The notes beneath the pieces were generated by a model that was not told the DNA's origin, searched no databases, and saw nothing but the letters and a program-made list of their open reading frames with translations. Shown in pieces: positions 37,235 through 38,762 of a stretch of 38,841 nt of DNA. Each line of letters begins with the position of its first letter. The first letter of the stretch is position 1. Position numbers and translations under genes: made by a program. Source of the DNA: Melioribacter roseus (GTDB taxonomy: Bacteria; Bacteroidota; Ignavibacteria; Ignavibacteriales; Melioribacteraceae); assembly GCA_020722005.1 (NCBI GenBank), contig DYLP01000025.1:1-38841 (forward strand), given 5' to 3'.

Positions 37235-37244
37235 GTTAAAACGC
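37235..37244. repeat. Left copy of 10-bp inverted repeat flanking an orphan gene
   Basis: 'gttaaaacgc' here is the exact complement of 'gcgttttaac' at 37679-37688. The two copies closely bracket the gene at 37246-37668, one base beyond the stop and about 11 bases before the start. Confidence 0.7.
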
Positions 37245-37245
37245 A

Positions 37246-37668
37246 TTATAAACCTTTAATAATAACTTCTTGATTAGAACTTTTTACATCATTAACAAAT
37301 CTTGAAAATTCTGCCAAACCATTTACTCCGAAAATTTTATTTGACTTAGTCCGAATTATTAATGAATTAGAACCATCGCTTTCAACTGAATTTATTTCAC
37401 TGAACTTTATTTTTGTTTCTTTGTGAAAAATACTAAAAAAACTGGCAGAATCTTTGTTAACGTTTATTTTTACCGGACGGTTGAAATATTTAGCCCAATT
37501 CCAAAATGCAAAAACAAAAAATGGTAAATCTAAAAGAAGTTTGAGTCTATCGACATCTGAATACTTAAAAAATATTACAATAATGGATATTGAAAGTATT
37601 GGCAAAGCCCAAATGCTGCATTTAAGAAATTTATTCAGCTCTAATGAATACTTAATTTCTTCACACAT
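37246..37668 (-). CDS. Hypothetical membrane protein with PH-like tail
   Basis: Function unknown. The 140-residue protein has two hydrophobic helices (about 14-34 and 42-60), followed by a small beta-rich domain ('VKINVNKDSASFFSIFHKET' to 'SLIIRTKSNKIFGVNGLAEF') that looks like the bacterial PH-like domain of similar small membrane proteins (inference). An AAGGTG ribosome site fixes the start. It stands alone, bracketed by a 10-bp inverted repeat, and belongs to the accessory stretch at the window's end. Confidence 0.75.
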   Translation of the reverse strand: MCEEIKYSLELNKFLKCSIWALPILSISIIVIFFKYSDVDRLKLLLDLPFFVFAFWNWAKYFNRPVKINVNKDSASFFSIFHKETKIKFSEINSVESDGSNSLIIRTKSNKIFGVNGLAEFSRFVNDVKSSNQEVIIKGL

Positions 37669-37678
37669 ATTTCACCTT

Positions 37679-37688
37679 GCGTTTTAAC
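37679..37688. repeat. Right copy of 10-bp inverted repeat flanking an orphan gene
   Basis: 'gcgttttaac', complement of 37235-37244. On the minus strand it reads GTTAAAACGC just before the ribosome site of the orphan gene, similar to (but not an exact match for) the GTTRRRY end of an integron attC site. Confidence 0.7.
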
Positions 37689-37906
37689 GGTGTTGCCGAG
37701 AAGTGTTGTCCCAGAACAAGGATGCCGATTAGAAAAACAACTCCTATAATTTAGTAGACAGTTCGTAAATTTCATCGTGCATACTGGTGGCAACTAATTT
37801 ACATTTTGCAATACACTAAAAGTGAAACTCATTAAAAAGAACAAACTATAAAACACAAAAAATACTGCTATGAAAATGCGGTCGGGTAGAAAACTTTTTA
37901 ACTTGC

Positions 37907-38697
37907 CTAGAACCGATAACTCAGAGACAAGGACTGCAAATTTGTTTTTACTTCAACTGATTTAAAAGAAAATAATGTTGTGATTACACCGGCTACTAGA
38001 CAAGTTATACCAACAATCGATTTTCGTGTTTTGGAGGATTCAAGTTCTGATGAATCGAAATTTTTATCAAACTTTTTTTGAAAGTCAATTGTCTTTTGTA
38101 TATCACTTGCGGAAGAAAAATTATCCAATGCTAATGTAAAAGACGCAACACTAATAGCTAATAATGGAATATATGGATATTCATACTTTTTATGAAATGT
38201 GGGTATTAATTCATCTGTAATTGGAATTGGTGTTCTAGATAATTGTAATAAATTTAAATTTTCTTTCCATATACCAACTTTATTTTTTTGTGCTCGTTCT
38301 TGTTCTTCGATAAGTTTAGAATAATAATCCTTATTTACATCTGGTAATAATATGGCGTAACCATTTGATAGAAATCGACTTGCCAAATCAGATTTTGAAA
38401 AAGCATAAGAGATATAAGCTATTGCCGAAATAGTTCCGTCATCATTTTTTTTAAAAACTCAAAATCAAATTTACGATCAAGTAATAATCTCGTTTCCCAT
38501 TTCAATATCTCATCTGCTAGATTAGATAATATTATGTTTGTATCATTTAGAGCTGGCACAAACAATCCATATAATTTGACTTTCACGTTGTTATCCAACT
38601 CAAACAAATTTGTTTCTAAAATTTTGGTGATACGATATCTTTGACCGATAGTAAACGTAAAGGAAAAAAAGAATAAAATTAGAATTTTTGATTTCAT
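37907..38697 (-). pseudogene. Frameshifted staphylococcal-nuclease-like protein with membrane tail
   Basis: Two overlapping frames join into one protein at an A8 run (minus strand; T8 at 38445-38452). The first half (from ATG 38697, with a GAGGT site) has a signal peptide and 'YRITKILETNLFELDNNVKV', 'KLYGLFVPAL'. It ends with a stop 23 nt later. After a -1 shift it continues 'KKNDDGTISAIAYISYAFSK', 'LASRFLSNGYAILLP' and 'AQKNKVGIW'. This order is that of SNase/thermonuclease domains. The usual catalytic Arg-Glu-Arg set is not seen: DGDT is ETNL, RLIGIDxPE is KLYGLFVPA, YGR is DDGT. Two hydrophobic helices follow. It could be a pseudogene, a sequencing indel, or a frameshifting gene, since T TTA AAA and A AAA AAA slippery heptamers are in the right phase. 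Confidence 0.75.
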
Positions 38698-38726
38698 TTT
38701 TACCTCTATTATTGGCAAACTAATAT

Positions 38727-38762
38727 CACGCGCTTCAGCCGCAGCGAGCCGAGCGAAGCGTG
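38727..38762. other. GC-rich hairpin upstream of the SNase-like gene
   Basis: A 36-bp stretch much richer in G and C than its surroundings forms a stem cgcttc (38731-38736) / gaagcg (38755-38760), extended past a 2-base bulge by cacg/tg pairs. It lies between the stop of the partial gene at the window edge and the start of the SNase-like gene. A similar 'gagcgagcgaagc' string is at 119-131. It may be a terminator or part of an attC-like site. Confidence 0.5.

Follow-up and report, generated by a model that had tools for sequence, protein, structure and literature searches.

In the part of the survey by Antonov et al. (2013; PMC3711429) that was available, singleton frame breaks confirmed by BLASTp are expected to be mostly sequencing errors, and lone homologue-confirmed breaks without a conserved site are assigned to sequencing error or to a recent indel. 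Rescue at a homopolymer was demonstrated experimentally for tssM1 of Citrobacter rodentium, in which the interruption comes right after an A-run, the remainder of the gene lies in another frame, and an A11 tract restores it (PMC4256274, in excerpt). In E. coli and Buchnera, insertions during transcription grow exponentially with the length of the A/T run, as described in the accessible portion of PMC5574713. Regarding gene cassettes, integrons in Ignavibacteriae were already reported in PMC9024848, whose available sections also describe sedentary integron cassettes, or clusters of attC sites, which lack an integrase.

The window analysed here is a whole contig of 38,841 nucleotides (C78) belonging to a draft genome of 2.66 Mb in 79 contigs (G000). 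On its minus strand there is a gene similar to staphylococcal nuclease (SNase) whose reading frame is broken. Like the singletons found by Antonov and collaborators in the part of their work cited above, this is a lone break confirmed by homologues and with no conserved frameshift site; unlike them, it falls exactly on an A8 run with slippery heptamers in phase. It shares with tssM1 the interruption right after an A-run and the remainder in another frame, but the run is A8 instead of A11 and the relatives have no run. We give a probability of about 0.85 to the reading that a gene that is otherwise ordinary lost its frame through a single homopolymer indel, either by mutation or by sequence error, and that it is not a case of programmed recoding. 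The parts of the gene are located as follows.

38419..38697, minus strand: 0-frame part of the SNase-like gene (its N-terminal half), from the ATG to an early TAG (38419-38421), 92 aa
38445..38452, minus strand: junction of the two frames at an A8 run, which is T8 when the plus strand is read
37907..38452, minus strand: remainder of this gene (its C-terminal half), read in the -1 frame as far as the TAG at 37907-37909; scores 25.7 bits with Pfam SNase

The open reading frame begins with the ATG at 38697, which has AGAGGT immediately 5′ of it, and the 0-frame product reads FLKKMMTELFRQ before the stop at 38419. As written, the DNA encodes a 92-aa N-terminal fragment. The first-pass annotation had described one SNase-like gene split over two frames that meet at the A8 run, with both slippery heptamers in phase and KKNDDGTISAIAYISYAFSK recovered by re-reading in the -1 frame. 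This description held: the coordinates agree, the orthologues are continuous across both halves, the junction codons (TTT TTA AAA AAA ATG) put both heptamers, T TTA AAA as well as A AAA AAA, in phase, and KKNDDGTISAIAYISYAFSK is found in the -1 frame. No second lesion was detected in the N-terminal or the C-terminal half. A restart of translation for the C-terminal half was considered and discarded, as the earliest start codon listed in the -1 frame is a TTG at 38386, which is not preceded by a Shine-Dalgarno-like stretch.

The orthologue search covered 164 genomes of the order, its own included, and relatives spanning both halves were found in three other genomes: G070 (54% identity), G104 (53%), and G113 (41%), which are Ignavibacteria, Ignavibacteriaceae, and Ignavibacteriales MAGs. 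A GTDB scan gave the identical three loci, and so the orthologues are three and not six. Considering that full-length relatives occur in only these three genomes, the gene is accessory. All three have an uninterrupted frame with no A-run at the junction, where they read ISKDGND, GSTEDGT, and ITNDS; orthologues of exactly this kind had been named by the first-pass annotation itself as evidence against its proposal. The alignment of the N-terminal half ends at residue 84 with L002, 84 with L021, and 81 with L022, and that of the C-terminal half starts at residues 93, 88, and 101, respectively. Since both halves match one continuous protein in the three orthologues, their join is not due to chance. 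The differences at codon positions 1/2/3 were 0.28/0.22/0.68 for the N-terminal half and 0.35/0.23/0.54 for the C-terminal half in comparison with L002, 0.35/0.20/0.51 and 0.35/0.29/0.46 with L021, and 0.54/0.34/0.71 and 0.43/0.29/0.54 with L022. With the halves compared in their respective frames, the third position was the most divergent in the six comparisons (two halves by three orthologues), which indicates that both halves were constrained as protein through most of their history. This constraint would also be expected of a rescued gene and was counted, like the in-phase heptamers, against the indel reading.

According to the indel reading, the product of the intact gene would combine an N-terminus resembling a signal sequence with an SNase-like domain (OB-fold) that lacks the catalytic residues and, at the C-terminus, a hydrophobic module; the gene would be carried as an integron-type cassette. 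One indel event at the A-run would have split it into two frames, either in the cells, where the gene would be a recent and dispensable pseudogene, or as an error in the draft sequence. We infer that the break is recent and has no useful rescue.

Other frame breaks in the same genome were surveyed by comparing the ORFs in 2.0 Mb of the 3.3-Mb genome G001, from the same genus, with the G000 sample, which gave 368 conserved genes. Nine of them were flagged in G000 and four were kept upon reading the DNA. Two of the four are broken at A7 runs, namely, an M23 peptidase (L038, G000:C17:16677-17803) and a tRNA-editing protein of PF04073 (L043 with L133, G000:C37:24967-25427); the other two are a histidine kinase broken off any run and an MBL-fold protein broken near the N-terminus. 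The PF04073 (tRNA_edit) protein, which we take to be YbaK-like, matches only its own two split pieces within the genome. Among the flagged genes that were dropped, a presumably SdhC-like one had a C-terminal difference, apparently an extension on the G001 side, a presumably SRAP-like one had C-terminal variation, and three were apparently shadow, upstream, or intergenic ORFs. The reverse survey flagged 8 of 357 query genes in G001 (raw flags), and therefore G000 is not exceptional. Frame breaks are a low background in the G000 sequence, through mutation or error. In the stretches of these 368 genes that matched best, A7 was found 232 times and longer runs, of eight to ten A, 75 times. None of these 75 longer runs sits at a flagged break, so that breaks at A8 are infrequent; this was also counted against the indel reading.

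A-runs were counted in 508 ORFs of at least 150 aa from a 711-kb sample of G000, and the expectation was obtained by synonymous shuffling. A8 was observed 102 times (134.0 expected), A9 7 times (42.9 expected), and A10 or longer twice (32.0 expected); in 1419 ORFs of G001 the corresponding counts were 227 (348.1 expected), 13 (128.2 expected), and 1 (78.7 expected). Runs of at least nine A are strongly avoided in the ORFs and A8 is common and tolerated, a pattern that agrees with Baranov et al. (2005; PMC1088944), where, in the part available, the length is put at nine in a large share of genomes. Separated by register, A8 in the register of the junction was not depleted (39 observed and 39.9 expected in G000; 78 and 85.8 in G001). 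The two other registers were depleted in G000 (27 against 46.8 and 36 against 46.4) and in G001 (78 observed, 142.1 expected; 71 observed, 115.7 expected); an in-phase A AAA AAA is also present in one of these registers but absent from the one with the strongest depletion. A mild depletion was seen for T TTA AAA when in slippery phase (72 against 98.3 expected, sd 9.3, in G000; 152 against 168.9, sd 10.6, in G001), and TTT AAA A was depleted more. These register counts give no clear sign of costly or frequent ribosomal slippage. Given how often A8 occurs in this AT-rich genome, slippery heptamers in phase prove little and it is the orthologues that decide; the locus serves mainly as a caution about the weakness of such heptamers as evidence in a genome of this kind.

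The first-pass annotation had proposed four causes for the split. Two of them, expression by slippage and phase variation, find no support, because the orthologues are intact and have no run, and no stimulatory structure accompanies the site; a recent pseudogene and an assembly indel are the causes that remain, and two conserved G000 genes are likewise broken at A7. Among the rivals of the indel reading, the one that survives best is that the break is real and that slippage of the polymerase or the ribosome at the A8 run gives some full-length protein, without having been selected. The in-phase A AAA AAA and T TTA AAA are consistent with it, as are the exponential growth of transcription insertions with run length and the restoration of tssM1, but the known tract (A11) is longer than A8 and A8 is tolerated in G000, and we judge it unlikely. 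It is very doubtful that the Ignavibacteriales tolerate A-run breaks in some genes, cassette genes included, by means of transcriptional or translational slippage at A7-A8 that is frequent enough to give a certain amount of full-length protein, with homopolymers acting as expression dampers. Phase variation, in which the length of the run would differ among cells and toggle the gene on and off, could suit an A-run lying inside a gene for a protein with a signal-like N-terminus; we hold it to be highly improbable, since the run is missing from the three orthologues and, with 102 occurrences of A8 in 508 ORFs, it is not special. Programmed -1 frameshifting, that is, a selected slippery site giving short and long products in a set ratio, deserves next to no credence in spite of the heptamers in the correct register, given that the break and the run are present in none of the three full-length orthologues, that no structure stood out downstream (107 nt from the run, z -0.75, stability equalled or exceeded in 47 of 200 shuffles), and that visual inspection of the 20 nt preceding the A8 showed no Shine-Dalgarno-like stretch. 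Judged by title, no literature on the subject of frameshift in Ignavibacteria was found.

Turning from the rivals to the gene that, in our preferred reading, a homopolymer indel has broken, the members of its family begin with what, judged by eye, resembles a signal sequence, followed by a domain similar to SNase and, at the C-terminus, by a hydrophobic module. The hydrophobic module is also present on proteins that have no SNase part (L004, L010, and L011). The similarity to the staphylococcal nuclease domain is given by the Pfam profile and by the best structural matches. With PF00565, whose cut-off is 21, the C-terminal half from the window scores 25.7 bits, L002 29.3, and L021 31.4, and L022 remains just under the cut-off with 20.2; the N-terminal half by itself had no Pfam match close to a cut-off, and NCBIfam offered no useful family. 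A structure model of the orthologue L031, built from three sequences, was poor overall (mean pLDDT 47.6) and usable at residues ~21-100, where the values were 57-87. Its best PDB matches were staphylococcal nuclease (1snd, E 2.6e-05) and SND1, and a four-row sequence profile reached only SND1, weakly (E 0.0088).

The catalytic residues of SNase are R, E, and R. The canonical-looking protein L018 has DGDT, R, PE, and GR, whereas in the window protein and the three orthologues TNLF or NNIF replaces DGDT, the first R is K or Q, and the E and the GR are missing. As the catalytic residues are not kept, comparison of the sequences suggests that this SNase-like family is non-catalytic. Among 11 further aligned SNase-like proteins of the order, D.NL replaces DGDT in 10 (L003, L005-L009, L016, and L023-L025) and L018 alone looks canonical, so a non-catalytic family of this type may be widespread in the order.

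In integron cassettes, each gene is flanked by its own complementary pair of core motifs. The surroundings of the SNase-like gene were inspected in this respect, and the following elements were located, a setting that is absent from the first-pass annotation.

38728..38761, minus strand: GC-rich imperfect palindrome upstream of the SNase-like gene; considered as a genome repeat and rejected, with a single copy in the draft
38714..38723, minus strand: TTAGTTTGCC, cassette-start motif 5′ of the ATG and end of an attC-like site, found by eye
37898..37907, minus strand: GGCAAGTTAA, with which the attC-like site following the SNase-like gene begins, found by eye; 8/10 complementary to TTAGTTTGCC
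37688..37907, minus strand: attC-like spacer of ~220 bp, resembling the spacer upstream of the L032 orthologue
37679-37687, minus strand: TTAAAACGC before the 140-aa gene, found by eye; exact complement (9/9) of GCGTTTTAA, which lies within GCGTTTTAAC
37246..37668, minus strand: next gene, 140 aa, with a weak PF20197 match under the cut-off; apparent neighbouring cassette
37235..37244, minus strand: GCGTTTTAAC after the 140-aa gene, found by eye

In the L032 orthologue, TTAGTTTGC precedes the ATG and GCAAACTAA follows the stop; by a raw count made by eye, the core motifs are complementary at 9/9 positions in L032 and 7/9 in L031. Since each gene has its own complementary pair, the arrangement is integron-cassette-like. 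The spacer of the window and the one before the L032 gene gave a local score of 124, against a maximum of 55 in 300 shuffles. The former lies after its gene and the latter before its gene, that is, it is a like element on the opposite side. The resemblance of the window spacer to an array element of G001 was weaker (63 against a maximum of 50 in 300 shuffles). The flanks of L033 and the downstream flank of L032 did not resemble the window spacer, and no second copy of it better than E 0.16 was found in the draft.

In G070 the L032 spacer matched at 20 positions spread over 11 contigs, and three of these positions were within 3 kb of an integron integrase (439 bits); in G001 it matched once, ~5 kb away from an integrase scoring 426 bits. 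At E 0.01 it had no match in G000 and G113. No integron integrase over the cut-off was found in G000, G104, and G113. In its complementary short core motifs and repeated spacer, the locus resembles the sedentary integron cassettes and integrase-lacking attC clusters, as these are presented in the available sections of PMC9024848, and in some related genomes copies of the L032 spacer lie near an integrase. It differs from them in the length of the window spacer (~220 bp), and the draft has no integrase over the cut-off. An attC site would fold as a bottom-strand hairpin; the spacer strands here were no more stable than shuffles (z -0.95 for L032 and 0.60 for the window). This folding result speaks against the cassette reading, and so do the negative results given above for spacer matches, flanks, and integrases. 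On balance, we read the end of the contig as belonging to an array of cassettes with no integrase close by. As a by-product of the analysis, an SNase-like family without the catalytic residues would seem to move about within Ignavibacteriales as an integron cassette.

The gene is 144 bases away from the contig end in the window and ~200 bases away in G070 (27-kb contig), and the L032 copy is on a 3-kb contig, a pattern as if nearby repeats had interrupted the assemblies. In G001 (G001:C1:657608-665863, L086 and L087) an integron integrase is followed by repeated elements, and a 70-aa fragment at 665654-665863 begins much like the integrase.
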